Shown piece after piece: positions 4,337 through 41,809 of a stretch of 64,000 bases of DNA. Position 1 is the stretch's first letter. Each line of letters opens with the position of its first letter. This DNA comes from Panopea generosa (lineage: Eukaryota > Mollusca > Bivalvia > Adapedonta > Hiatellidae). The DNA is taken from NCBI GenBank assembly GCA_029582155.1, contig CM055899.1:71849719-71913718 (forward strand). The letters are read 5' to 3'. Below the pieces are notes generated by a model. The model was not told the DNA's origin and ran no database searches. It saw only the letters and a list, made by a program, of their open reading frames with translations. A program made the translations under genes and the position numbers.

Positions 4337-7300
4337 ACGTTTTATCTCGTAGTGTTTTCCGCATTTTAAACGCAATGCATTGTGATTAAATACATCGAAG
4401 TAATACTATATGAATAATTAGGTCTCACTTACCAATTTTTCCCATTAGTGACGGTGGCAAGAGAAATTAAAGCTGTGTGAATTGATTAAGCTGTTTTTCT
4501 GTTTTTAAAAATGCTTAAAATGGTAATGTTTCTTTCTATAAATGAGAAAATTTAAACAATGTTTTAGTTTTGTCAACTTTCAAAGACATTAGATGCTGTT
4601 AAATGGTAATGTGACAGTTAAAATGTGCGTAATGATACATAACAGCACATGGACGGAAATAGCATATTTGAAGACTGGTCATTAAACATTTTGAAATTGT
4701 AAAAAAGCAATCCGATCAATCCCGTGTGTGTTCTGCTTGTTTTTTTAGCAGCAGATGACTATCTGTGGAAACAGGACACTTTAGAAACCATTGGTAATGT
4801 TTTCAGTTATCGAGAAATGCATTTTCTATATTTTTTATGTAGAACAGTGATAAATTAACAGTTGTGTGAGACATACATGTATTGCTGCTACATTTGATTC
4901 GGATACATTGTACATGTTCATATTTGTGTGCTGAGATATCCGATATGTATGGTTTCTGGCGACATGACTGGTCCATTAAAGCAATTAACATTACTTGGAC
5001 TATCAGATTGATTCGGTTACATTTTAAATATTTTTTTTCCGATGGATCGGAGATTTTCCTTTCAAAATTAAAAGCATTAAACGACCATGGGACATATCAG
5101 CTGCCCAGATGGCCACAGATTGGTACTTTACATAATATGAGATTACACCTGAATTTATTGATATTTCGCCAACCACGAGTTTGAAAATTTAATGTTAGTC
5201 TAAAGTTTAATGAACAAATTCAATGGGCATATTTTCATTAATTTCATTTAAATTCAGACAGAAACCAACGTGTTATAGCTTTTTAAAAATGTTGGAATTC
5301 ACAATTGTATCAGTAATATGTATGTCCGCCATTTGTAGCGATTATGGCGATATAGTTCGACCTCATTGACATTGACACTTTTGAGTATGTATAGGTTGTA
5401 TTTAAAAAGACAAGACAACTTTCACAACCTCATATTTTGATGCATTCGTGTCAGAACGTAAACAAGGCCTGGAAATATATTATCATAAGATACTTGCAGA
5501 GATGATTTGATTCAATGAGGTTGAATCGCCGAAAATGGTGTACATACTTGATACTGATATAATTGTCAATTTGACTTAGCGTGTGCTGCATTTCAAACAG
5601 TTTTTACATGTTTATTGCATTATTATTTTAAGCAATAAATCAGGAAAATATGCACAATGAATTTGTTCTTTAATTTGCAGATTTAAATATGAAATAATTT
5701 ACAAACTCCTGTTGACAAAATATCAATAGATCAATCTAGGTATTCAATCGTGGCGCTAGTGTAATGGATAGAGTATTGGCTGCTCACGCCAGAGGTTGCA
5801 GGTCCGATCCCCCGATCGGCCCAATGCCTCTCATAAAACATGACTCAGTACTGGTTCTATTTAGTTTTCATCGCAATCAAACTATATAATCTAAACTAAA
5901 ATAATCTAGGTATAACTTTTGTTGAATGTATGTTAAACTAATTATCACTTCATTTTGCAAAACAGGTAACAGGTATATTGGTCGTTATTGATCATTACCT
6001 TGAAATGTATAATAATGATATGTATATCCTACCATCGGCAAACACATGAAATAAAATAAACATTAAACACTTTGAAATTAATAAGCGCATGTGTACATGT
6101 AACTTTTAATTGAGATAAAAATGAGTTTATATTATGAGTTTCATAAAGTTTTATTATTGAAACTCGTTAACGAAATTATAAGTCGTTAAATTGGTGTGCT
6201 TATTTCTGGAATGATTATGAGTTACGTACACAGTTAATGCACCTAACGGACTTAACGTAACACTCGTGAATAATGCAACACAAAATGAATGTCTTTTATT
6301 CAGATTAATTACAGTTCCTGATTAATACCACCATTAATACGACCATTTACCGTTATTAAAGAAAAGAGCGCGTGGAGGTATGATTGGCGTGCGTGTGTGT
6401 GGGTGGGATGGGGTGGGGTGGGGGATAATAATAAGTGGAAATCCCTGTTCGGTATGCAAGAAAATGTAGATCCAACCTAGCAATTCACGGTGATATGGGC
6501 AGGGTAACACCAAATTAGGACGACAACTAAATAGCCTATGTATGTGGAAACTATCAATATATGTGATAAATAACGGACTGTCTAAGCGTATCTTTCTATT
6601 GGATTACATGACTGATAATATTAAATTCATCATGTAAATATTTATTTTCTAGAAATAAACTCAGTTGACCATTTATATCAATTGCCCCTTGCCCTTTTAA
6701 AAGACATTTAAAATGAACATAGTTTGACCTGTGAACAAAGTCGTAATGAGTCATATTTATAGATGTGGCCATTGGTTAACAGTTTAAGATACTAATCACA
6801 TCTAAATATGCCGTCCAAATCAAATAAATTAACAGTCATTAAAGACGACATATACAATAATTTAACATGAATCCAAGCATGAATTAATAACTGTCAAATT
6901 TGAAACAAATTGCACATATATATGAAAAAAGATAACTAATTTGAAGAAGGAGGGTAGTACAGTCTACAGAGAGTATTGGCTGCTCACGCCAGATGTTGCA
7001 CGTTTGAATCGAGAGGGTAGTACAGTCAACAGAGAGTATTGGCTGCTCACGCCAGATGTTGTAGGTTTGAAGCGGGAGGGTAGTACAGTCAACAGAGAGT
7101 ATTGGCTGCTCAGGCCAGATTTTGCGGTTTTGAAGCGGAAGAGTAGTAAAGTCCACTGAAAATATTGGCTGCTCACGCCAGATGTTGCGTGTTTGAAGCG
7201 GGAGGGTAGTACAGTCTACAGAGAATATTGGCTGCTCACGCCAGATGTTGCGTGTTTGAAGTGGGAGGGTAGTTCAGTCCACAGAGAGTATTGGCTGCTC

Positions 7301-10300
7301 ATGCCAGATGTTGCAGGTTTGAATCGGGAGGGTAGTACAGTCCACAGAGAGAACTGGCTGCTCACGCCAGATGTTGCAGGTTTGGAGCGCGAGGGTAGTA
7401 CAGTCCACATAGAATATTGGCTGCTCACACCAGATGTTGCGGGTTTGAAGCGGGAGGGTAGTACAGTCCACAGAGAAAACTGGCTGCTCCAGCAGATGTT
7501 GCGGGTTTGAAGCAGGAGGGTAGTACAGTCCACAGAGAATATTGGCTGCTCACGCCAGATGTTGCAAGTTTGAAGCGGGGTGGTAGTACAGTCCACAGAA
7601 AGTATTGGCTGCTCACGCCAGACGTTGCAAGTTTGAAGCGGGAGGGTAGTACAGTCCACAGAAAGTATTGGCTGCTCACGCCAGATGTTGCGGGTTTGAA
7701 GCGGGGGGGGGGGGGGGGGGGGGGGGGGGTAGTACAGTCCACAGAGAATATTGGCTGCTCACGCCAGATGTTGCGGGTTTGAAGCGGGGGGATAGTACAG
7801 TCCACAGAGAATATTGGCTGCTCATGCCAGATGTTGCGGGTTTGAAGCGGGAGGGTAGTACAGTCCACAGAGAGTATACGCTGCTCACGCCAGATGTTGT
7901 GGGTTTGAAGCGGGAGGGTAGTACAGTCCACAGAGAATATTGGCTGCTCACGCCAGATGTTGCGGGTTTGAAGCGGGAGGGTAGTACAGTCCACAGAGAG
8001 TATTGGCTGCTCACGCCAGATGTTGCAGGTTTGAAGCGGGAGGGTAGTACAGTCCAAAGAGAGAACTGGCTGCTCACGCCAGATGTTGCGTGTTTGAAGC
8101 GCGAGGGTAGTACAGTGCACAGAGAGTATTGACTGCTCACGTCAGATGTTGCAGGTTTGAAGCGCGAGGGTAGTACAGTGCACAGAGAGTATTGACTGCT
8201 CATGCAAGATGTTGCAGGTTTGGAGCGAGATGGTAGTAAAGTCCACAGAGAGTATTGGCTGCTCACGCCAGATGTTGCGGGTATGAAGCGGAAGAGAAGT
8301 ATAGTCCACTGAGAGTATTGGCTGCTCACGCCAGATGTTGCGGGTTTGAAGCGGAAGAGAAGTATAGTCCACAGAGAGTATTGGCTGCTCATGCCAGATG
8401 TTGCGGGTTTGAAGCGGGTTGGTAGTACAGTCCACAGAGAATATTGGCTGCTCACGCCAAATGTTGCAGGTTTGAAGCGGGAGAGTAGTACAGTCCACAG
8501 AGTGTACTGTTGGTGTTTGAAGTGGAAGGGTAGTATAGTCCACAAAAATTATTGGCTGTTCATGCCAGATGTTGCGGGTTTGAAGCGGGAGGGTAGTACA
8601 GTCCACAGAGAGTACTGGCTGCTCACGCCATATGTTGCGGGTTTGAAACGGAAGGGTAATACAGTCCACAAATGGTATTGGCTGTTCATGTCAGATGTTG
8701 CGGATTTGAAGCGAGAGGGTAGTAAAGTCCACAGAGAGTATTGGCTGCTCATGCCAGATGTTGCGGGTTTAAAGCGAGACAGTAGTACAGTCCACAAAAA
8801 GTTTTGGCTGCTTCCACCAGATGTTGCAGGTCTGAAGCGGGAGGGTAGAACAGTCCACAAAAAGTATTGGCTGCTTCCACCAGATGTTGCGGGTTTGTAG
8901 CGGGAAGGTAGTAAAGTCCACAGAGAATATTGGCTGCTTCCACCAGATGTTGCGGGTTTGAAGCGGGAAGGTAGTAAAGTCCACAGAGAATATTGGCTGC
9001 TCATGCCAGATGTTGCGGATTTGAAGCGGCAGGTAAGTACAAACCACAGAGAGTATTGGCTGCTCATGCCAGATGTTGCTGGTTTGATGCAGGAGTGTAG
9101 TTAAGTCCCCAGAGAGTATTGGCTGCTCACACCAGATGTTGCAGGTTTGAAGCGGGAAGGTAATAAAGTCCATAAAAGTAGTGGCTGCTCACGCCATATG
9201 TTTCGGGTTTGAATCGGGAGGGTAGTAGTCCACAAAACGTATTGGCTGCTCATGCCAGATGTTGTGGGTTTGAAGCAGGAGCGTAGCACAGTCCGCAAAT
9301 GGTATTGGCTGCTCACGTCAGATGTAGCGGATTTAAAGCGGGAGGGTAGTAAAGTTCACAGAGAGTATTGGCTGCTCATGCCAGGTGCTGCGGGGTTGAA
9401 GCGGGAGGGTAGTACAATCCACTGAGGGTATTGGCTGCTCACGCCAGATGTTGCGTGTTTGAAGCGGGAGGGTAAGTCCACAGAGAGTATTGGCTGCTCA
9501 CGCCAGATGTTGCGGGTTTGAAGCGGGAGGGTAGTACAGTCCACAAAAAGTATTGGCTGCTCACGCCAGATGTTGCGGGTTTGAAGCGGGAGGGTAGTAC
9601 AGTCCACAGAGAGAGTATTGGCGGCTCAGGCCAGGTGTTGCGGGATTGAAGCGGGAGGGTAGTAAAGTCCACAGATAGTATTTGCTGCTCATACAAGATT
9701 TTGCGTGTTTGAAGCGGGAGGGTAGTACAGTCCACAAAGAGTATTGGCTGCTCAAGCCAGATGTTACGGGTTGGAAGCGGGAGGTTAATAAAGTCCACAG
9801 AGTGTACTTTTGGTGTTTGAAGTGGAAGGGTAGTATAGTCCACAAAAATTATTGGCTGTTCATGCCAGATGTTGCGGGTTTGAAGCAGGAGGGTAGTACA
9901 GTCCACAAAGAGTACTGGCTGCTCACGCCATATGTTGCGGGTTTGAAACGGAAGGGTAATACAGGCCACAAATGGTATTGGCTGTTCATGTCAGATGTTG
10001 CAGGTTTGAAGCGAGAGGGTAGTAAAGTCCACACAAAACATTGGATGCTCATGCCAGATGTTGCGGGTTTGAAGCGGGAGGGTAGTACAGTTCACAGAGA
10101 GTATTGGCTGCTCAGGCCAGATGTTGCGGGTTTAAAGCGGGACAGTAGTACAGTCCACAAAAAGTTTTGGCTGCTTCCACCAGATGTTGCGGGTCTGAAG
10201 CGGGAGGGTAGTACAGTCCCAAAAAAAGGTATTGGCTGCTTCCACCAGATGTTGCAGGTTTGAAGCGGGAGGGTAGTACAGTTCACAGAGAGTATTGGCT

Positions 10301-12644
10301 GTTCACGCCAGATGTTGCGTGTTTAAAGCAGGACAGTAGTACAGTCCACAAAAAGTTTTGGCTGCTTCCACCAGATGTTGCGGGTCTGAAGCGGGAGGGT
10401 AGTACAGTCCACAAAAGGTATTGGCTGCTTCCACCAGATGTTGCAGGTTTGAAGCGGGAAGGTAGTACAGTCCACAGAGAGTATTGGCTGCTCATGCCAG
10501 ATGTTGCGGATTTGAAGCGGGAGGTAAGTACAATCCACAGAGAGTATTGGCTGCTCATGCCAGATGTTGCTGGTTTGATGCAGGAGTGTAGTTAAGTCCC
10601 CAGAGAGTATTGGCTGCTCACACCAGATGTTGCAGGTTTGAAGCGGGAAGGTAATAAAGTCCATATAAAGTAGTGGCTGCTCACGCCATATGTTTCGGGT
10701 TTGAATCGGGAGGGTAGTAGTCCACAAAACGTATTGGCTGCTCATGCCAGATGTTGCGGGTTTGAAGCGGGAGCGTAGCACAGTCCGCAAATGGTATTGG
10801 CTGCTCACGTCAGATGTTGCGGATTTAAAGCGGGAGGGTAGTAAAGTTCACAGAGAGTATTGGCTGCTCATGCCAGATGTTGCGTGTTTGAAGCGGGAGG
10901 GTAAGTCCACAGAGAGTATTGGCTGCTCACGCCAGATGTTGCGGGATTGAAGCGGGAGGGTAGTAAATCCACAAAAAGTATTGGCTGCTCATGCCAGATA
11001 TTATGGGTTTGAAGCAGGAGGGTAGTACAGTCCACAGAGAGTATTGGCCTCTCAAGCCAGATGTTGCGGGTTTGAAGCGGGAGGTTAATAAAATCCACAG
11101 AGAATATTGGCTGCTCTTGCCAGGTGTTGCGGGATTGAAGCGGGAGGGTAGTACAGTCCACGAGAGTATTGGCTGCTCACGCCAGATGTTGCGGGTTTGA
11201 AGCGGGAGGGTAGTACAGTCCACAAAAAGTATTGGCTGCTCACGCCAGATGTTGCAGGTTTGAAGCGGGAGGGTAGTACAGTCCACAGAGAGAGTATTGG
11301 CGGCTCAGGCCAGGTGTTGCGGGATTGAAGCGGGAGGGTAGTAAAGTCTACAGATAGTATTTGCTGCTCATACAAGATTTTGCGTGTTTGAAGCGGGAGG
11401 GTAGTACAGTCCACAAAGAGTATTGGCTGCTCAAGCCAGATGTTACGGGTTGGAAGCGGGAGGTTAATAAAATCCACAGAGAATATTGGCTGCTCTTGCC
11501 AGGTGTTGCGTGTTTGAAGCGGGAGTGTAGAACAGTTCACAGAGAGTATTGGATGTTCACGCCAGATGTTGCGGGTTTGAAGCGGGAGGGTAGTACAGTC
11601 CATAGGTAGTATTGACTGTTCAGGCCAGGTGTTGTGGGTTTGAAACTGGAGTGTTGTACAGTCCACTGAGAGGATTGGCTGCTCACGCCAGATATTGCGT
11701 GTTTGAAGCGGGAGGATAGTACAGTCCACAGAGAATATTGGCTGCTCACGCCAGATGTTGCGGGTATGAAGCGGGAGGGTAGTACAGTCCACAGAGAGTA
11801 TACGTTGCTCACGCCAGATGTTGTGGGTTTGAAGCGGGAGGGTAGTACAGTCCACAGAGTGTATTGGCTGCTCACGCCAGATGTTGCGTGTTTGAAGCGG
11901 GAGGGTAGTATAGTCCACTGAGTGTATTGGCTGCTCACGCCAGATGTTGTAGGTTTGACGCGGTAGGGTAGTACAGTCCACAGAGAATATTGACTGCTCA
12001 CGCCAGATGTTGCGGGATTGAAGCGAGACGGTATTACAATCCGCAGAGAGTATTGGCTGCTCACGCCAGATGTTGCGGGTTTAATTCCGAACTGGATAAG
12101 ATGCCTCTCAAAACTGGTTAGACTCAAGAAACGGACTCAAGAGATCATTTTAATTCAGCACTTTCTTCGCAGTTTAGCTAAGATTAATATGTATAAACTT
12201 AATTTGTACGAAAAAAGAATCTACAACGTCAAAACAAAACACTGACGACATCATCTGAACATAATACAGCACTATTGATAATAGAACGTAATGATAGGTA
12301 GGAACAACAGTTTTAACCCACCACCTAACATTTTATGTATCTGACATTTTATGTATCTGACATTTTATGTATTTTCTGAAAAAGTATCAAAGCAATTTCC
12401 TTGAAATTTGGACTTGAATAAGAAAGAATATTTCAGCTATGTAAAATTAATACATTACTGTTATATGTCGTATATAGGCTTTAATAACGTTACTTAATAT
12501 TTTAACGAAAATATTGGAAATACAAAAGTGGCGGGTTAGCTGTTCCGTTCAATATATAATCATTTATAATAACACTTTTATAAACAACAAACCTTCCAGA
12601 GCTGCTTCACCGACAGCGAATACAACAACTAAAAGTAGCAACAT
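1024..12644 (-). CDS. Apextrin-like secreted protein (EGF + ApeC), three-exon gene
   Basis: The model is three exons on the minus strand: 12644-12593, 2506-2402 and 1442-1024 (stop TAA 1026-1024). Every junction has GT/AG sites and both introns are phase 1. The lengths sum to 576 nt, or 191 residues. Order: a 17-residue hydrophobic leader, one EGF domain, then an ApeC domain to the end. ApeC proteins (apextrins of amphioxus, echinoderms and molluscs) are secreted or intracellular lectin-like pattern-recognition proteins; peptidoglycan binding is known for amphioxus members. A role in mucosal or haemolymph defence here is inferred. The first intron is about 10 kb and holds the 63-bp satellite; the second is about 1 kb. 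A further EGF exon inside intron 1 cannot be excluded, but none is needed to keep phase. No lesion is seen. Confidence 0.8.
2402..2506 (-). CDS. Apextrin-like gene, exon 2 (EGF-like domain)
   Basis: This exon of 105 nt is symmetric (phase 1 in and out), as is usual for shuffled EGF modules. The acceptor AG is at 2508-2507 after a pyrimidine-rich tract and the donor GT is at 2401-2400. It encodes DCFGMECWHGG, then a CRCQCPTGYSGIYCEY end. The six cysteines, the GG after Cys2 and the CPxGYxGxxCE end are the EGF signature. This type of EGF module sits directly before ApeC domains in molluscan apextrin-like proteins. Confidence 0.85.
2711..2785 (+). promoter_or_regulatory. Cluster of CRE-like sites with a downstream TATA-like box
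   Basis: Within 35 bp lie TGACGTTA (2719), TGATGTCA (2732) and TACGTCATT (about 2747), followed 27-30 bp later by TATAAAG (2777-2783). This arrangement resembles a CREB/ATF-type promoter facing the plus strand. No plus-strand gene is recognised after it. It lies in intron 1 of the apextrin-like gene. Confidence 0.35.
2944..3955. other. No gene seen, AT-rich intron sequence
   Basis: Part of intron 1 of the apextrin-like gene. Six-frame reading shows only short chance open frames, with no domain, tandem repeat or tRNA-like sequence. Confidence 0.6.
3960..4230 (+). repeat. Dispersed repeat A, copy 1 (diverged)
   Basis: It contains CTGACATTTTATATATTTTC, then GCAATTTCCTTGAAATTT, a stretch ending GTCAAATCAATACGTACTTG and TGTCGTATACAAATATCGTT. 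The same ordered phrases occur at 12340-12560, 15600-15840 and 17300-17540. Function and class are unknown. It is non-coding and always lies near apextrin-gene introns or the 64-bp minisatellite. Confidence 0.6.
4303..4336 (+). repeat. (CTGT)n microsatellite
   Basis: About eight perfect CTGT units follow a short C-rich stretch. Confidence 0.95.
4422..5000 (+). repeat. Dispersed repeat B, copy 1
   Basis: Collinear with 28833-29330: a shared GGTCTCACT start, GACGG..GCAAGA, AGCTGTGTAA/G, then AAAAAGCAA..GATCAA/GGTCAACCCC, GACTATCTRTGG and ACCATTGGTAATGT. No open frame is conserved between the copies, so it is probably a non-autonomous transposon. The class is not identified and the ends are approximate. 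Confidence 0.6.
5750..5870 (+). repeat. tRNA-derived SINE, parent type of the 63-bp satellite
   Basis: The A box TAGTGTAATGG begins at 5757. The anticodon-arm-like hairpin TTGGC-TGCTCAC-GCCAG follows, and the B box GGTCCGATCCC begins at 5801. The body continues with ATGCCTCTCA (5824) and CAGTACTGGTTCT. The anticodon region most resembles a Glu-type (CTC) loop, though U33 is replaced, so it is not a working tRNA. The phrase AGTACTGGTTCTA is shared with the SINE at about 26540. The segments GAGTATTGGCTGCTCACGCC and ATGCCTCTCA are shared with the large satellite at 6939-12083. Confidence 0.85.
6360..6427 (+). repeat. G-rich simple sequence (GTGTG / GGGGT)
   Basis: A run of GTGTGTGGG followed by GGGATGGGGTGGGGTGGGGG has four G-tracts of 3-5 and could form a G-quadruplex. 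Confidence 0.7.
7703..7729 (+). repeat. Homopolymer of 27 G inside the satellite
   Basis: The GCGGGAGGG end of one monomer is replaced by a run of 27 G. It could be a slipped G-tract with G-quadruplex potential, or an assembly or sequencing length error. Confidence 0.9.
8498..11490 (+). repeat. Higher-order duplications inside the 63-bp array
   Basis: A marker monomer with AGTGTACTNTTGGTGTTTGA at 8501 recurs at 9801 (offset 1300) with matching neighbours. The TTGCTGGTTTGATGCAGG marker at 9076 recurs at 10567 (offset 1491). A variant with GAGAGTATTGGCGGCTCAGG at about 9610 recurs at about 11290 (offset 1679). Blocks of roughly 20-27 monomers have therefore been duplicated as units, with later loss or gain of single monomers. 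Confidence 0.8.
12084..12125 (+). repeat. SINE 3' body bordering the satellite
   Basis: Directly after the last monomer the sequence reads AATTCCGAACTGG, then ATGCCTCTCA (12101) and AACTGGTTAGACT, matching the ATGCCTCTCA...ACTGGTTCT body of the SINE at 5824. The B box to ATGCCTCTCA distance is 23 bp in both. This shows that the array sits inside a SINE copy. Confidence 0.8.
12330..12375 (+). repeat. Three tandem copies of TGACATTTTATGTATC
   Basis: The 16-bp phrase is repeated about three times and forms the start of dispersed repeat A, copy 2. Confidence 0.8.
12340..12560 (+). repeat. Dispersed repeat A, copy 2
   Basis: It shares the ordered phrases AAAGTATCAAAGCAATTTCC, GGACTTGAA, GTCGTATA, AAAAGTGGCGG and GTTAGCTGTT with 15600-15840 and 17300-17540. 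It lies just inside intron 1 from the signal-peptide exon, so the duplicated upstream copies may mark former copies of the gene's 5' end. Confidence 0.7.
12593..12644 (-). CDS. Apextrin-like gene, exon 1 (signal peptide)
   Basis: ATG is at 12644-12642, followed by MLLLLVVVFAVGEAALE, a short secretory leader with a hydrophobic core and small residues before the likely cleavage site. The exon ends with one base of the next codon (G at 12593) and a GT donor at 12592-12591. That phase matches the EGF exon, whose first two bases complete GAT (Asp). This start was chosen because it alone supplies a leader of the right phase, and a TATA-like sequence lies about 40 bp upstream. Confidence 0.72.
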
Positions 12645-21839: not shown

Positions 21840-23300
21840 ATGAGTTTTATTTTAAAAAAAATCTTTTAATCTTTTTCTCAATTTGGCTTCACTAAACTTA
21901 AAAAAAAATATTCTGATATTGTAAGATATTATAATATTTTCGTTATCTTTACTTAAATAAAAATTATATGTACCTGAAATTAACTTTTTAGTGTGTTTCT
22001 CACATTGGTTGCAAATGTGGCGTCATCATTTTTTTTTACTGATACATGTAGTATGATTTATGTTAAAATATTGTTTAAAATGACAAACTATATGAAAGTT
22101 GTTTGAAAATATACCCACTGTGCTATACCGCTTCATATATGACACGCAGCAACACAGACACCCGTGGTGTTAATTACATTATGTCACATGCCAGTAAGAG
22201 CCGTGTCAATTAAATTATACGCTAAAGTGGTGACTTATCGGACCAAGGAAGAACCCTGCTGATATGTATGATTTTATTTGATTGTAATTAGTACCCGATG
22301 GATGAATCTTAATTGAACCCGCAGTATGTGATTGAAAAGAAAAACAGTATACTTGTGCACATCCCATTCAATAATGCAAATAATAGTACCAAATTAATTG
22401 TATTCTTCAATATATATGTTTTATTATTTACTTCATGTATGTAACACAATTATGTTCACTCTCGTATTACTGCATGCATGCATTGGATTGTTTGTGTAAA
22501 TAACGATGACCTGTATATGTTCAAGTTATATTGAATAAAATTATGTTCTGTTCTGTTCACTATAAAGTGGGTCAGTAGTGCAGCGAATAAATCTGAAAAC
22601 ACAATTCAGTACCAGATCTAATAAGGGATTGCATTGGAGAATGATATGCGTAAGCTCCGAGCTTACTTCACAATCAAGCTAAATTAAATTAATAAAGAAT
22701 AAATTTACGTATGCCAAAATAACACGACAGGCCGAAATAAAACGATAGAAACAGGAAATAAAAAATATACTGTTTTTACTTTAATTGCAATATAACAGTT
22801 ATACGTTCATTTTTTTTACAACTACCACAGATTCAGTGTAACTATGTTTGGGAAAAATATTGAATTGAAAATGGATAATTTTTATTTTGCCAAAATACAT
22901 AAGCAAATAGAATCATAATCATATAATTTTCCGCATATCTATGTTTTGTTGTCACGCATGTATTGATTTTTTTTTGTATTTGAAGCTGTATACGCTTAAA
23001 TAGAAATAAAGTATATGTTCTATAACTAAATAATATCGAAACAGCAAGGCATATAGTGAATTCATATTTCATCTTTTCGAATTGTTATTTACAGTATACT
23101 AGTATATAACTTGAAATTATTTATATTTTAGTTGCGCAAACAAATCATGTTTAATATGCAACTGAATTGGCCTTGAGACCGTAGTTAACCATTGATGCAT
23201 CGTCCATTGTATAATAGGTATTTTAAACATATTATAAAGATTAGCTTAATATTGATATTTATTTTAAAAATAGAAAAATTGTAGACCAAAATTAGTTTTA
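21840..23300. other. No gene seen inside the 4.5-kb insertion
   Basis: AT-rich sequence with only short open frames, no recognisable domain and no repeat found elsewhere in the window. Confidence 0.55.
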
Positions 23301-23950: not shown

Positions 23951-25465
23951 TAAATATACTAACGGAAAAAAGAAACTGCGCATGTGTAAAATGTTCATGT
24001 ATCGCTCAATTTTATAAATTAAAGCTTGAAACTTTACACAGGTAAGTTGTGTATCCCTCTCGGTCATTTACACTGGTCAGTGCATGAGTTGCACGGGTAG
24101 TTTGTCTGTCTGGTCAACGTCTTCGTTTTCATGGGTTTATTCCGGCCAGCAGTCAATCGCAAACACGTTTGTCGACTAAACCTGTGTAAAAGCATAGTGT
24201 TGATACCTGTAAGACACAAAACCAGCATACTTTTGAAAAACGTCTTTGATACGCCATGCCAAGGTTGAATGAAACTGACAGATGCCGCGCCGTAGGCATG
24301 ATTGAAGCTGGTGTACGTCATACTTACGTTGCCAGACGATTTGGTGTGCACCGAAATACTGTAAACGCCTTGTGGAGACGGTACCAACAGTTTGGGACCA
24401 CCAGAGACCGGCCTCGGTCAGGACGTCCACGCGTAACGTTTAGTCGCTAGGAACGTACATCCGGGTCGTTCATCTCCGTGAACGACTCAGAACTGCTACT
24501 TTGACGGCTAGAAGTATTCCTGGCCTTAGAAGAATTAGTCCCCGGACGGTACGTAATCGATTGCTTGAACGAGACATACGTCCACGACGTCCAGCCATAC
24601 GTACTGTCCCCAGCAACGTCATCGTGTAGCACGTTTTGCCTGGTGTAGACGACACATACACTTCACGCAACAGGACTGGGCACGTGTTCTTTTCACGGAT
24701 GAGTCCAGGTTTCATCTCGACAGTAGCGACGGTCGTTCTAGAGTGTACTGTCGTGTTGGTGTACGTTTCCATGACAGTTGTGTGATTCAACGACGTCTAT
24801 TCGGCGGAGGTAGTGTCATAGTTTGGGGTGGCAACTCATCCCGTGGCAGAACAGCTCTTGTGGTTGTGGACGGCACACTTACAGGCATCAGATACCGTGA
24901 CGAGATCATACGGCCTCACGTCATTCCATTTGTGCAGCAACGTAACGCCACGCTGCAACAGGATAACGCTCGCCCGCACTTCGCACGGGTCGTCACCGAC
25001 TTCTTGATCCAGAACAATGTGAATGTGCTGCCCTGGCCTGCAATGTCAACGGATATGTAGCCTATAGAACACGTGTGGGATGAGATGCAGCGTCGCTTAC
25101 GTTGCCTCCAAAATCAGCCGTTGACGTTACCTGACCTGTCACGTGCTCCTGTGAGAATCTTGAATGGTATTCCCCAGGCATTTTCCAGCACACTTTTCGT
25201 ATCAATGAGGCGTCGTTGCCAAGCATGCATCGATTCCAATGGTGGACATACACGGTATTGGTGAGATGAACTTTGTTTAGAGAACGTCTCTAAAAACTGA
25301 TCTATATCCAAGACGCTGCTGATGCAGTAACCATATCAATTGAACTGATGTTAAATAAAGGTCAGATAAAACTCTGTTGACATTTTTTTTGCGATTTCTT
25401 ATATATCTCCTTAGTTATAGCATATTATACCCATGCACAGTTTCTTTTTTCCGCTAGTATATTTA
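23951..25465 (+). mobile_element. Tc1-like DNA transposon, 1.5 kb, near full length
   Basis: Inverted ends of about 33 bp: both ends, read inwards, give TAAATATACTARCGG then AAAAAAGAAACTGYGCATG. The length of 1515 bp is normal for Tc1. The ends differ at only about two positions. TA dinucleotides border the ends. The element lies inside the larger 21.1-25.7-kb insertion and so was inserted there later, or was carried with it. Confidence 0.88.
24256..25264 (+). pseudogene. Tc1-family transposase, DD34E, disrupted
   Basis: The N-terminus MPRLNETDRCRAVGMIEAG with VARRFGVHRNTVNALWRRY and the GRPR hook is a paired-type DNA-binding domain. The catalytic triad is visible: Asp in FTDESRF (24698), Asp in QQDNARPH (24962) and Glu in PIEHVWDE (25067), with 34 residues between the last two. 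The C-terminus is RRRCQACIDSNGGHTRYW and TGA at 25262. Breaks: a stop plus shifts at about 24450-24640, and a TAG (25058-25060) three codons before the catalytic Glu. The protein is inactive, but damage is light, so the copy is fairly young. Confidence 0.85.
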
Positions 25466-30296: not shown

Positions 30297-30602
30297 ATGC
30301 CTGGCATGTTGGAGCGCAAGATGATGGGAGGGGAAAGAAGGGAGGTGGAGGAAAGATGGGTGGATTAGTGATGGTGAGATGGAAGGAGGGTGAATGGGTG
30401 GAAGATTGAGGCAGAGAGGAAGAGAGGGAAGGTGAGAGATAGGATGGGTGAGAGGGATGGAGCAGGGGTAGGAAGGAAGGTGAGTAGATGCGTGAAAGGG
30501 ATTGCTCATGGGCGGGTGGGATGATGGGTGGAAGGGGGAGGGAGAGAGGGAGAGAAAAATGGACGGATGGAAGGTGGGAAAGAGGTATGAAGAGAGGGGG
30601 TG

Positions 30603-34868: not shown

Positions 34869-36938
34869 TCATTTCATCGCGTCTTTCAGTTTCTCCTAGA
34901 ACAATTAACGCCCTACCTGGTCGTCTGACCATTCTATAAAAGTTGTTGTCGTCTTACACAGCAACTTCAGAGATTTGTTTATATAACGTGCTTCCGGTTT
35001 TGAAGCATGATGACAATAAGCTCTGTTCCGTCCTCTATATGTTAAGTGTGCGCAATCTTTAACTCAAACATGCTCCATCCGCTCTTGGCAAATTCATTCG
35101 TGAGAATAATGATGATTTTCCTACTGTTTTCCATACAATCTGTTATGTTATCATGAATATATACACCCGGTCTAAAATTCCTATCATTAATACAAAGTTT
35201 GTATCTGTTCTGTTCCTCCAAAATCGGAAGTAGGTGATCGTAGACCCATTCCTGGTTGATTTGGTTACATCCAGCATCGAAGCCAAAATCACGCCCGTCT
35301 AACTGTTGATACTGTCGTCTTTTCCGTAAAAGAGACATATAGTGTTTGAAACTCCATCTATATTTGTAAATGATAATTGCAATAACGATAAATAAAATTA
35401 CTAGAGGTCCACTGACAACTCCGACCCAAATTCCTACGCCCCATGGATGACACTCCTTGTACATAAATGACATATTTGAGAGAAGTTTACCTTTCATGTG
35501 CGATGGAAAAGCGCAAACATAACAATTTGGATAGTTCTTAATGTTTACATTATCTATATGGTTACGTAGCCAACTGATAAATGGATTTAACGCACATTGA
35601 CAAACAAATGGGTTGTTTGACATATCAAGTATCTGTAAGTTCTTACCAGGCAGATCATCTTGATTGATTGCTAGTATTTGATTACTGTTTAAAAACAGTT
35701 TCGACACATTTTCATATGCTAAAAGGTTGACTGAAGTAATTTTGTTACTAGAAAGCCTCATGAAACGTAACCCTGATTTGATTTTTACTATCTGTATAGG
35801 AAAATATTGTAATTGGCAATCCACCATACCCAGTTTTTGTCATATTTGACAACCAGTCGTCGGTTTGACGGTTGAAATTGATATAATCTATATCTAAATG
35901 GTCTAAATGTGGAATGTGCATAAATGTTTCATTTGGGTTTACAAACATATCTTTTGCTTTGGCGTCATTTCGAATATTAAGATATCGTAACGTCAATGAC
36001 CGGAACGCCTTTGGGTAAATTTTTAAATATGGCAGTCTTATATTATATAAGAGTAGAATTGCTATATTATTTAACTCAGATAACAAATCGGTTTGAAATT
36101 CCACTATATAGTTTTCGGCGAGGTTAAGAATAACTTAGGTTTAAAGGCATATGAAATTTGTAGAATTGACAGAGAGGATTTTGTTTCTCTGGATCAGTAA
36201 AGTTAAGATCGAAGGTGTATAAGTTTTTTGCAAAATGTTATCGCAAAGGTTAGGAAAGGTCTGAAGGTCATTAGACGATAGTATTAGCGTCTCTAAATGT
36301 TCCAGTGCAGGTACTTGAAATGTTGTAACTCGATTGTTTTTAAGATAAAGAAGTTGTAACTTTTTAAACATTTGAAACATGTCTTGCTATATGGTTGTTA
36401 AACCAATGTAACCCAGAGAGAGAATAGCTAAATTGTTTTCAGTAATGTTTGAGAAAATAGTTTTAGAGATATGTAATATTGACATTGAGTTGAGATAGAG
36501 ACTCCTCAAACTCTCTTTCTTTGACAATAGTTGCAGAAGTTTCTCAAGTTGATTTGACGGTATATTATTTCCAGACAGGCTTAGATTTCGTAAATTTACA
36601 AATGTGCTGAACGCGTTGGCTGTAATATGTTGTATACCGTCATGTTCCAGTGTAAATTTTTCAATGTTTACAACACTGATGTTTTCAAATGTCACATTGC
36701 TTACAAACGGCAAGTAGTTTTTGTTAAATATCAGACGGTGTATCCGTTGTCCAAGTTTCGGAATGTACGTTAGATAACGTCCTTTATCAGCGCAGTTTGC
36801 TGTGTCCATATGTATACGGCACAACTTTCTGGTTGTTGGTACGTTAATGTTAGTGTGAGATACTCATATATCGCAGAAACATAAAACAACCAACAACGTT
36901 GCACCGAACGTAAACGAGAAGTCATGTACAAACGCCAT
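34869..36938 (-). pseudogene. Toll-like receptor pseudogene (signal peptide, LRRs, LRRCT, TM, TIR)
   Basis: An intron-less frame of about 690 codons. The start at 36938 gives MAFVHDFSFTFGATLLVVLC, a leader. Then come leucine-rich repeats (LRNLSLSGNNIPS, LQLLYLKNNRVTTFQ, LRFMRLSSNKITSV, LQILDMSNNPFVCQC), an LRRCT with CQCALNPF..CYVC..KEC, a transmembrane segment GIWVGVVSGPLVILFIVIAI and a TIR domain with box 2 LCINDRNFRPG. Lesions: TGA at codon 25 (36866-36864), stop at 36389-36387, two TAA at 36143-36135, a frameshift near 35828, TAA at 35044-35042 and further stops beyond. TIR box 1 is short (FDAGCNQ) and the box 3 Trp codon is a stop. The original end is AMK and TGA at 34871-34869. TLRs signal through MyD88-type adaptors; this copy cannot. 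Confidence 0.9.
35042..35827 (-). pseudogene. TLR pseudogene: longest surviving frame (last LRRs to mid-TIR)
   Basis: It encodes the last two LRRs, the LRRCT, the transmembrane helix and about 95 residues of the TIR domain. A tract YKYRW..YMSLLRKRRQYQQ follows the membrane. If transcribed it would give a membrane-anchored fragment without box 3, but no suitable start or leader is present. It is the best probe for finding functional paralogues. Confidence 0.85.
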
Positions 36939-37574: not shown

Positions 37575-40500
37575 GTTGTGACTAACCCCCATGTCCGTAT
37601 TGTTTGTGGACAGATAATGAGTGACTGACATCCAGGTCCGTCCCGTTGGTGGACAGAGTGCGTGACCAACCCCAATGTCCGTGCCGTTGGTGGACGGAGA
37701 CGTAGTGACTACCCCCAGGTCCGTATCAGTGGTTGACGGAGAAAGAGTGACTACATCCAAGTCCGTACCGTTGATGGACGGAGACTAAATGACTACCCCA
37801 GGTCCGTATTGTTGGTGGATGGAGATTTTGTGACTACCCCCAGGTCTGTACCGTTGGTAGATGAAGACTAAGCGACTACCCCAGGTCCGTACCGTTGGTA
37901 GACGGAGACTAAGTGACAACTCCCAGGCCCGTATCGTTGGCGGACAGAGAATGAGTGACTACCACAGGTACGTACCGTTGGCAGACAGAGAATGAGTGAC
38001 TAACCCCCAGGTCCGTACCGTTTATGGACAGAGAATGAGTGACTAACCCTTACAACCGTGCCGTTGGAGGACATACAATGAGAGACTGACCACCAGCTCG
38101 GTGCCGTTGGTATACAGAGAATGAGAGATTACCCCAAGGTCTGTACCATCGGCAGACAGAGAATGAGTGACTAACCCCCAGGTCCATACCGTTAATAGAC
38201 GGAGACCTAGTGACTACCCCAGGTTCGTACCGTTGGTGGACACAGAGTGAGTGACTAACTCTTACATCCGTATCATTGGCGGACAAAGAATGAGTGACTA
38301 ACCCCTAGATTCGTACAGTTGGCGGACAGAGAATAAGTGACTAACCTTTACGTCCGTGCCGTTAGTAGACTGAGAATGAGTGACTAACCCCCAGATCCGT
38401 ACAGTTGGCGGACAGATAATAAGTGACTAACCCTCACGTCCGTACCATGGGTAGACAGAGAGTGAGTGACTAACCCTTGCGTCTGTATCGTTGGCGGACA
38501 GAGAATGAGTGACTAATCTTTACGTCCGTGCCGTTGGTAGACAGAGAATGAGTGATTAACCCCCAGGTCCGTACGGTTGGCGGACATATAATAAGTGACT
38601 AACTCTTACGTCCGTACCGTGGGTGGACAGAGAGTGAGTGACTAGCACTTACGTCTGTATCGTTGGTGAACAGAGAATTAGTGACTAATCCCCAGGTCTG
38701 TATCGTTTGCGGACAGAGAATGAGTGACTATCCCCAGGTCCGTACCGTTGGTGGACGGAGACTTAGTGACTATCACAGATCCGTATCGTTGGTGGACAGA
38801 GAATGAGTGACTACCCCCAGATCCGTACCGTTGGTGGACAGAGACTTAGTGACTACCCAGGTCCGTATCGTTGGCGGACAGAAAATGGGTAACTACCCCC
38901 AGGTTCACACTGTTGGCGGACAGAGAATGAGTGACTGACCTCAAGGTCTGTACCGTTGGTTGACAGAGAATGAGTGACTAACTCCCAGGTCCGTACCGTT
39001 AATGGACGGAGACTTAGTGACTACCCCAGGTCCGTAGTGTTGGTGGACAGAGAATGAGTGACTTATCCCCAGGTCCGTACCGTTAGTGGACAGAGACTTA
39101 GTGACTACCCCCAGGCCAGTGCCGTTGGTTGACAGAGATTGAATGACTATCCCCAAGGTTTATACCGTTAATGGACAGAAAATGAATGACCACCCCAAGG
39201 TCCATACCGTTGTGGGACAGAGAATGAATTACTAACCCCAAGGTCCGTACCGTTGGTGGACGGAGAATGAGTGAATAACCCACAGGTCCGTTCGTTGGTG
39301 GACAGATACTGAATGAATAACCCACAGGTCCGTATTGTTGCTGGACAGATACTGAATGAATAACCCACAGGTCCGTACCGTTGGTGGACAGATACTGAAT
39401 GAATAACCCACAGGTCGGTACCGTTGGTGGACAGATACTGAATGGATAACCTACAGGTGTGTACCGTTGATGGACAGATACTGAATGAATAACCCATAGT
39501 TCCGTACCGTTGGTGGACGGAGAATGAGTGACTTACCCCCAGGTCCGTACCGTTGGTGGACGGAGAATGAGTGACTTACCCCAAGGTCCGTACCGTTGGT
39601 GGACAGATACTGAATGAATAACCCACAGGTCCGTACCGTTTGTGAACGGAGAATGAGTGACTACCCCCAGGTCCGTACCGTTGGTGGACGGAGACTTAGT
39701 GAGTACCCCCAGGTCTGTAACGTTGGTGGACAGAGACTTAGTGACTACCCCAGGTCCGTATCGTTGATGGACAGAGAATGAGTGACTGACCCCCAGGTCC
39801 GTACCGTTGATGGACGGAGAATGAGTGACTGACCTCCAGGTCCGTACCGTTGGTCGACAGATACTGAATTAATAAACCACAGGTTGGTACCGTTGGTGGA
39901 CAGATACTGAATAAATAACCCACAGGTCCGTACCGTTGATGGACAGATACTGAATGAATAACCCACAGGTCCGTACCGTTGGTGGACAGATACTGAATTA
40001 ATAACCCACAGGTCCGTACCGTTAGTGGACGGAGAATGAGTGAATAACCCACAGGTCTGTAACGTTGGTTGACGGAAAATGAGTGACTTACCTCCAGGTC
40101 CGTACCGTTGGTGGACAGATACTGAATGAATAACCTTAAGGTCCGTACCGTTTGTGGACGGAGAATGAGTGAATACCCCCAGGTCCGTACCGTAGGTGGA
40201 CGGAGACTAAGTGACTACCCCCAGGTCCGTACCGTTAGTGGACGGAGAATGAGTGAATAACCCACAGGTCCGTACCGTTGGTGGACGGAGAATGAGTGAC
40301 TTACCGCCAGGTCCGTACCGTTGGTGGACAGATACTGAATGAATAACCCACCGGTCCGTACCGTTTGTGAACGGAGAATGAGTGACTACCCCCAGGTCCG
40401 TACCGTTGGTGGACGGAGACTTAGTGAGTACCCCCAGGTCTGTAACGTTGGTGGATAGAGACTAAGTGACTTCCCCCATGTCCGTACTTTTGGTGGACGA

Positions 40501-41490
40501 AGAATGAGTGACTTACCCCCAGGTCCGTACCGTTGGTGGACGGAGAATGAGTGACTTACCCCCAGGTCCGTAACGTTGGTGGACAGATACTGAATGAATA
40601 AACCACAGGTCGGTACCGTTGGTGGACAGATACTGAATAAATAACCCACAGGTCCGTACCGTTGATGGACAGATACTGAATGAATAACCCACAGGTCCGT
40701 ACCGTTGGTGGACAGATACTGAATGAATAACCCACAGGTCCGTACCGTTAGTGGACGGAGAATGAGTGAATAACCCACTGGTCCGTACCGTTGGTTGACG
40801 GAAAATGAGTGACTGACCTCCAGGTCCGTCCCGTTGGTCGACAGATACTGAATGAATAAACCACAGGTCGGTACCGTTGGTGGACAGATACTGAATAAAT
40901 AACCCACAGGTCCGTACCGTTGATGGACAGATACTGAATGAATAACCCACAGGTCCGTACCGTTGGTGGACAGATACTGAATTAATAACCCACAGGTCCG
41001 TACCGTTAGTGGACGGAGAATGAGTGAATAACCCACAGGTCCGTACCGTTGGTTGACGGAAAATGAGTGACTACCCCCATGTCCGTAACGTTGGCGGATA
41101 GAGACTTAGTGACTAACCCCATGTCCGTACTTTTGGTGGACGAAGAATGAGTGACTTACCCTCAAGTCCGTACCGTTGGTGGACAGATACTGAATGAATA
41201 ACCCACAGGTCCGTACCGTTGATGGACAGATACTGAATGAATAACCCACAGGTCCGTACCGTTGGTGGACGGAGAATGAGTGACTCACCCCCAGGTCAGT
41301 ACCGTTGGTGGACGGAGACTTAGTGACTACCCCCAGGTCCGTAACGTTGATGGACAGAGACTTAGTGACTACCCCCAGGTCCGTACCGTTGGTGGACAGA
41401 GAATGAGTGACTACCCCCAGGTCCGTAACGTTGGTGGACAGAGAATGAGTGACTGACCTCCAGGTCCGTACCGTTGGTGGACAAAGAATG
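37575..41490 (+). repeat. 43-bp minisatellite array, about 90 copies
   Basis: The unit contains CAGGTCCGTACCGTTGGTGG, ACAGAGAATGAGTGACTACC and CCC. Two subfamilies: AGAGAATGAGTGACT (whole array) and AGATACTGAATGAATAACCC (mainly 39290-41260). Blocks such as 39820-40080 and 40810-41070 are near-identical duplicates. The GTCC..ACC-GTT-GGT..GGAC core is a short imperfect hairpin. Minus-strand open frames with a 43-residue period result from 3 x 43 bp and are not genes. Confidence 0.95.
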
Positions 41491-41809
41491 AGCGTTAACT
41501 ATTTCATAGTTTTATACAAAGTTCATAATGAAATGCTCGAAAATGTGTGACAACCTATCTTGCCTAGCCCCCATGTTCATATCGTAAATTAAAGGTTTAA
41601 AGGTAAGGTCATGTTAGTTAGACCGGCTCAATAGTCAAAGCATCAAAAAGAAGACATGACTTTTGCTGTGATACATTATATCGAGATTACAAATTTCTAC
41701 TCAATAATCACAAACATGTTTATAGCTCCGCCCGATGCTTACAAAAGTGCATAACAGAGTGTGATTATATTGGTTTTGAACAGTTAACTTTCGATTACCA
41801 CGGTTACAA

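Follow-up and report, generated by a model that had tools for sequence, protein, structure and literature searches.

A tandem array of 63-bp units in the window (the whole stretch of 64,000 nucleotides that was analyzed) is enclosed between the two ends of a single tRNA-derived SINE, and we are highly confident that it arose inside that one SINE copy. The initial annotation, made from the sequence alone, had proposed that the head of one SINE copy was amplified. This has been borne out, since the array lies within that copy, both SINE ends have been located and the SINE belongs to a real family. Whereas the origin of many satellites can no longer be traced, the SINE ends, the unit boundaries, a likely target-site duplication and an old paralogue are all readable in this case, so that the path from a single retrotransposon copy to an array of 80-100 units can be broken into ordered, testable steps. 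The features in and around the array are the following.

6940..12082, + strand: tandem array, 83 units of 63 bp (Tandem Repeats Finder and wrap-around alignment)
6944..12202, + strand: single SINE insertion enclosing the array, about 197 nt swollen to 5.26 kb
12021..12202, + strand: last unit, running on through the remainder of the B box and the SINE body as far as the SINE 3' end; it has an internal deletion of net 14 nt, shared with the paralogue
8483..11461, + strand: internal block duplications, units 26-29 = 47-50, 35-39 = 59-63 and 43-46 = 70-73
6937..6943, + strand: putative left target-site duplication TAATTTG, adjoining the SINE 5' end; the same 7-mer stands at 12200-12206
12200..12206, + strand: putative right target-site duplication TAATTTG, identical to 6937-6943
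6940..6944, + strand: TTTGA at the boundary of the flank and the SINE 5' end, proposed seed microhomology, with its partner TTTGA in the mutated B box
5744..5902, + strand: separate SINE copy (the 5750 copy), reference of the initial annotation, a family member without part of the 3' body

A dispersed tRNA-derived SINE family

The parent element is a genuine dispersed tRNA-derived SINE family: multicopy, with defined 5' and 3' ends, target-site duplications and a tRNA-like head carrying A and B boxes. The genome searched was a 1.47-Gb assembly of 39 contigs, in which the 5750 copy used as query gave 1995 first-look candidates, the best 40 of these 1995 being scored. The consensus was derived from 44 aligned copies, after 16 of the loci L001-L060 (the window's own copy and pieces of the array) had been dropped. 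It is about 197 nt long, starts with AAGCGGGGCGGTAG and ends with GTATAAACTAA. Exact target-site duplications of at least 10 nt were found in 13 of the 44 copies (raw count). Compared with the box motifs, the consensus has one mismatch in the A box and none in the B box. The Rfam tRNA model matched two of the four copies tested, with 29.0 bits in L020 (gathering threshold 29) and 27.0 bits in L010, and gave no match on L003 and L005. At E 10 there was no tRNA match for the 5750 copy and none for the last array unit. ARAGORN found nothing on the consensus by default and, at a relaxed threshold, three weak candidates, the first of them a tRNA-Glu(CTC).

The 5750 copy matches positions 1-114 of the consensus at 88.6%, has one mismatch in its A box and is flanked by a perfect 11-bp target-site duplication (5733-5743 and 5903-5913), equalled by 5 of 4000 distant and 12 of 3000 nearby random pairs. 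It lies in a 947-bp stretch (5387-6333) that is missing at the paralogue, where positions 951 and 959 of locus L061 flank the gap. This difference is either an insertion in the window locus or a deletion in the paralogue. Besides, a 3' fragment of the same family is found at 22651-22703, with 81% identity to consensus positions 145-197.

The array and its units

The array consists of 79 full-length and 4 partial units (two edge pieces and two internal units of 45 nt), in good agreement with the amplification of "about 80-fold" estimated earlier. The units diverge on average by 8.7% from their consensus and by 15.3% from each other. The monomer corresponds end to end to nucleotides 1-61 of the SINE consensus plus an insertion of 2 nt, with 50 of the 61 positions identical in the unit consensus. 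For this reason the AAGCGGG found in each unit, apparently the tail of a B box, is actually the 5'-terminal sequence of the following SINE head. The alignment of the monomer to the head of the 5750 copy, from which the initial annotation had started, was confirmed over the core (32 of 34 positions match), with a local score of 58, while none of 5000 shuffles exceeded 28, the highest score among them.

Several blocks of units have been duplicated within the array. The numbers of shared and different variants were 39 and 10 for units 26-29 and 47-50, 37 and 5 for units 35-39 and 59-63, and 18 and 2 for units 43-46 and 70-73. The most variable class of sites among the units were the CpGs, with 0.169 changes per site versus 0.075 for the non-CpG average. 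Unit 13 contains a run of 27 Gs (7703-7729) that is either a true expansion or an error of sequencing or assembly.

Minisatellite is a better word than satellite for this array. A classical satellite forms abundant heterochromatic arrays and is present at many loci, and here two loci were found in the assembly, among the best 40 of 98 candidates obtained with a unit dimer and among 100 listed of 248 places matching the unit junction. Since 63 is a multiple of 3 the array contains long open frames, and a coding array was considered and rejected: synonymous and non-synonymous changes among the 71 gapless units were near expectation in all six frames. The largest departures (92 synonymous changes against 76.8 expected, and 105 against 90.0) were both in frames with a stop in most units. 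Exact-match scans of viral and genome contig collections gave 0 matches.

Both edges of the array are SINE ends

The left edge of the array, at 6944, is the natural 5' end of the SINE, a point that had gone unnoticed in the initial annotation. The sequence there, AAGAAGGAGGGTAG, agrees with the start of the consensus at 10 of 14 positions, and the paralogue at 12 of 14. At the other side the SINE 3' end is found at 12202, where GTATAAACTTAA corresponds to the end of the consensus. The sequence past the last monomer had been read as SINE body, and indeed the region 12021-12202 aligns over the whole 197-nt consensus with an E value of 4e-20 and 69% identity over 199 columns. We prefer the E value as the measure of this alignment, the null maximum of 56 coming most likely from the SINE fragment at 22651-22703. 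The same region matches dispersed copies of the family at about 70% over about 155 nt. Thus the head-to-tail units are homologous to part of a dispersed SINE and the terminal units run as SINE to its termini, 3' at 12202 and 5' at 6944, as in the arrays of at least four units classified as sSats or SINE-derived minisatellites.

The spacings given by the initial annotation were recounted and are correct: GAGTATT and the B box are separated by 30 bp, and the B box and ATGCCTCTCA by 23 bp, at the array end and in the 5750 copy alike (B boxes at 12078 and 5801, ATGCC at 12101 and 5824). In a fixed register the right edge of the array shares a 10-nt run with the 5750 copy (P ~7e-5), and a match anywhere in the flank was not significant (P 0.06). 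Beyond ATGCCTCTCA the similarity between the array tail and the 5750 copy was not significant either (P 0.05-0.09, and 0.39-0.54 under strict scoring), because the 5750 copy is devoid of part of the SINE body; the family consensus settled the question. The ATGCCTCTCA edge, on whose reality the earlier reading depended, recurs at the paralogous array.

The 7-mer TAATTTG found at both ends is short and overlaps the SINE tail, and 26 of 5000 random unmasked pairs share 7 nt or more. There is moderate evidence that it represents the target-site duplication of the array-bearing SINE. A 12-bp repeat with one mismatch (6921-6932 and 12207-12218) was discarded as a candidate for this role; it does not abut the SINE and was equalled by 65 of 4000 distant and 97 of 3000 nearby random pairs. 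We also rejected the array as part of a larger multi-copy transposon, given that the left flank (6600-6936) has five matches, two of them full length. These two are the filled loci, and no empty site was found among the five matches. On the right side (12212-12520) only the two loci on chromosome C6 cover the first 89 nt among 47 matches (best 40 of 2995 candidates). A different dispersed repeat occupies approximately 12301-12520, starting about 100 bp to the right of the SINE, and the query 12212-12520 gave 2995 first-look candidates.

A second array in an old segmental duplication

The earlier note had suggested searching the genome for other arrays with SINE body at one edge, and one was found among the matches listed. 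The query with the right junction had a second full match at C6:10888772-10888948, with 87% identity over 177 nt, which belongs to the following feature.

C6:10882074-10888833: paralogous array of 108 units, 106 of them full, bounded by the same SINE ends

It is located on the same chromosome as the window array, 61 Mb away. The two loci are the product of an old intrachromosomal segmental duplication, colinear from 5.7 kb upstream of the window start to window position 30298, with gaps and an identity of about 80-90%. The duplicated segment is about 36 kb long where it includes the window array and 27.7 kb long at the paralogue (C6:10870506-10898206, the left limit lying beyond). The two copies of the segment share several other minisatellites. 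The TAATTTG duplication is decayed in the paralogue. Our searches did not reveal a third array: dimer matches longer than 71 nt were all in the two C6 arrays (among the matches listed, best 40 of 98 candidates), and so were all 39 exact matches to the unit junction (among the matches listed, 100 of 248 places). A match to the junction with one mismatch was detected at C3:13056109, where no dimer match was found among the best 40 of 98 candidates.

The unit consensus is identical in both arrays, and the divergence of the units from it is 8.7% in the window array and 9.6% in the paralogue, while the flanks diverge by about 11-17%. The unit divergence is therefore at least half that of the flanks, which favors growth before or at about the time of the segmental duplication. 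Individual units are more similar within arrays than across. The nearest unit differs on average at 2.6 positions within the window array and 2.3 within the paralogue, and at 5.6 across arrays. In the window array 64 of 79 units are closer to a unit of their own array and 4 to one of the other; for the paralogue these numbers are 81 and 11 of 106. The paralogue has a block duplication of 26 units and the window array has different blocks. Pairs of units with more shared than different variants amount to 24 of 3081 within the window array, 90 of 5565 within the paralogue and 0 of 8374 between arrays. Taken with the private block duplications, this indicates that the arrays have turned over completely or have grown separately. 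The last unit is joint first of 82 in similarity to the SINE in the window array, and tenth of 107 in the paralogue.

Origin and growth of the array

The unit begins and ends between the TTTG and the A of TTTGA. Directly upstream of the SINE 5' end a TTTG is found in both paralogues, and in the window copy also just past the 3' end; for this reason the TTTG next to the SINE probably belongs to the target site. In the paralogue the last unit has GGTTTGATCCC as its B box, one CpG transition away from GGTTCGATCCC in the SINE consensus. In the last unit of the window array this box is GGTTTAATTCC, which contains TTTAA and not TTTGA.

The single SINE around the array, the unit boundaries, both SINE ends, the paralogue and the block duplications are directly visible. 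From them we infer the order of events and the copying process as follows. The SINE of about 197 nt would have inserted once, generating the TAATTTG duplication. Its B box would then have changed from GGTTCGA to GGTTTGA by a CpG transition, so placing TTTGA words at both ends of the SINE head, one at the boundary of flank and 5' end and the other, a head-length away, in the B box. An exact duplication of the head may have followed by slippage or unequal exchange between the two words, and further unequal exchange together with block duplication would have raised the number to about 80 units. Finally, the segment bearing the locus would have been duplicated within chromosome C6, and the two arrays would have turned over independently. 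In the model of Haber and Louis, as it is presented in PMC6947457 and PMC9659126, a motif is first duplicated by slippage or unequal crossing-over between short direct repeats (5-10 bp) on either side of it.

We regard the seeding of the first duplication by the TTTGA words as having an even chance of being right. Against it, what remains of a unit since lost may account for the TTTG at the left edge, and the last B box of the window array now has TTTAA. A TTTG is also found upstream of SINEs at C16:34341162 (L005, a single copy), C5:55280615 and C10:51244425 (the last two are pattern matches only). Such a match is not sufficient to give an array, because other SINE copies flanked by TTTG were not arrays in the dimer search (best 40 of 98 candidates). 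We would propose only tentatively that seeding was due to a landing site ending in TTTG together with the deamination of the B-box CpG to give TTTGA, something that may have occurred in each paralogue separately. If this were general, loss of the B-box CpG would make SINE copies adjacent to TTTG candidates for tandem growth of exactly their promoter head, and retrotransposons would turn into satellites in a predictable way.

The first head-to-tail copies could also have been made during reverse transcription or insertion, either by template switching or by a second, truncated SINE entering the first. Template switching would make its join at the SINE 5' end, exactly where the unit starts, and tandem SINEs are known (PMC10702118). 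A second insertion, however, should leave a target-site duplication and a tail between units, and none is present in the 83 units; besides, the junction of TTTG and AAG is explained without it. We consider an origin at insertion rather doubtful. The derivation of the array from a tRNA gene or pseudogene, similar to the SINE only by common tRNA descent, is hardly credible. The layout of the monomer is certainly tRNA-like, but past the last unit the sequence continues as SINE body all the way to the 3' end of the element, and this full-length alignment refutes such a derivation. Moreover, the unit starts with the SINE 5' end, and 81 of the 83 units share the G that the SINE has at the position of tRNA U33, the residue that tRNAs carry there.

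With growth inside one SINE copy as the preferred reading, the question is whether it happened before or after the segmental duplication. The junctions that the two loci have in common are natural SINE ends on both sides; on their own they prove that the SINE insertion is shared, and not that the array is. The two arrays could thus have grown independently after the duplication, each from the same single SINE with the same TTTGA words. The arrays have no colinear block of full units in common, and the absence of between-array pairs sharing more than they differ points in the same direction. On the other hand, the identity of both unit consensuses and a unit divergence that makes the expansion look at least as old as the duplication render independent growth unlikely, and we infer that the array predates the segmental duplication.

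Pol III promoter and possible function

Each monomer had been described as keeping a degenerate internal Pol III promoter and an anticodon-arm hairpin. The first is weak: both boxes are closer to their motifs than in shuffled units, but key residues are lost. The GG of the A box is CA in 72 of the 83 units, the equivalent of C56 in the B box is kept in none of the 83 (81 T and 2 G), and the unit junction takes the place of the last four B-box nucleotides; the SINE consensus has an intact B box. The case for the hairpin is weak as well. When only units whose stem letters are unchanged were counted, 5 of 81 had it in their minimum-energy fold, and the monomer RNA folded no better than shuffles (z 0.33). 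The array unit thus has neither the intact A and B boxes nor the tRNA fold of a functional tRNA gene or Pol III unit.

That the array is maintained as a functional unit, providing many Pol III promoters or TFIIIC sites, appears very improbable. In its favor, 64 of 81 units have an A box with at most 2 mismatches (13% of shuffled units) and 45 of 81 a B box with at most 2 (2% of shuffled units). Pairing is kept in 369 of 395 anticodon-stem cells, and there are 5 two-sided changes; shuffles averaged 361, and none of 1000 came up to the observed value. However, the excess of pairing can come from the relatedness of the units, and common descent can explain both the box scores and the pairing. The loss of the key B-box C in all the units and of the A-box GG in most also argues against function, as do the substitution rates, which in the A box (0.067), the B box (0.069) and the stem (0.060) are near the 0.075 averaged over non-CpG sites. 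There are eight TTTT runs on the + strand within the array. Such runs terminate Pol III, and these eight would stop transcription within the array. Judging from the sequence, the array most likely does nothing as RNA and is a neutral tandem repeat.

Comparison with known SINE-derived arrays

The initial annotation regarded SINE-born satellites as rarely documented at their junctions. This is too strong, as there is a systematic description in squamates with the SINE at the array edge (PMC10702118) and a limpet satellite (PMC11121367). SINE-born arrays were already known, and the window array is an unusually readable example. According to the squamate work, sSats were identified across 56 genomes, with the SINE continuing at the array end, and its authors considered their restriction to squamates uncertain (PMC10702118). 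The window array adds a probable non-reptile case. Like it, the sSats described there have tandem units (about 70-290 nt) derived from part of a tRNA-related SINE, a longer terminal unit reaching the SINE end, internal subvariants and homogenized units (PMC10702118). In contrast to what is described for them, the window array goes back to one founding insertion (two paralogous loci) and its 63-bp unit comes from the very 5' end. Besides, sSats are reported as subtelomeric (PMC10702118), while here the distance to the nearer contig end is 10.9 Mb for one array and 15.2 Mb for the other.

PcH-Sat of the limpet Patella caerulea is similar in being a satellite with a segment of a tRNA-type SINE, Nin-SINE (PMC11121367). 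It differs in its size (179 bp) and abundance (about 10% of the genome) and in matching outside the promoter head, without the A and B boxes; the junctions in its description do not include those of a single insertion (PMC11121367). Minisatellites derived from Alu and B1 have been tabulated (PMC6947457, PMC9659126). They resemble our case, together with the Haber-Louis model, in that short direct repeats seed the first duplication (PMC6947457, PMC9659126), whereas the repeats proposed here are the insertion flank with the SINE 5' end and the CpG-decayed B box. Finally, Hy/Pol III, Xenopus OAX/satellite 1, Rana/Pol III and Cynops PolIII/TAN are also tandem repeats with tRNA-like sequence, although that of Hy/Pol III has been questioned (PMC10702118). 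For these four families no confirmed SINE parent is given in that account (PMC10702118), whereas here the parent and its ends are identified.

Surroundings of the array

Tandem repeats are abundant in the window, with 20,315 of the 64,000 bases assigned to them by Tandem Repeats Finder. A 43-bp unit is present in about 92 copies at 37578-41492, and there are also arrays of 35-, 64- and 70-bp units. Three frames with recognizable domains were found, and the ApeC, LRR and TIR domains among them point to an animal, possibly a mollusc.

1024-1509, - strand: frame with an ApeC domain
24569-25060, + strand: DDE transposase-like frame, below the Pfam cut-off
35042-36863, - strand: frame with LRR and TIR domains (Toll-like)
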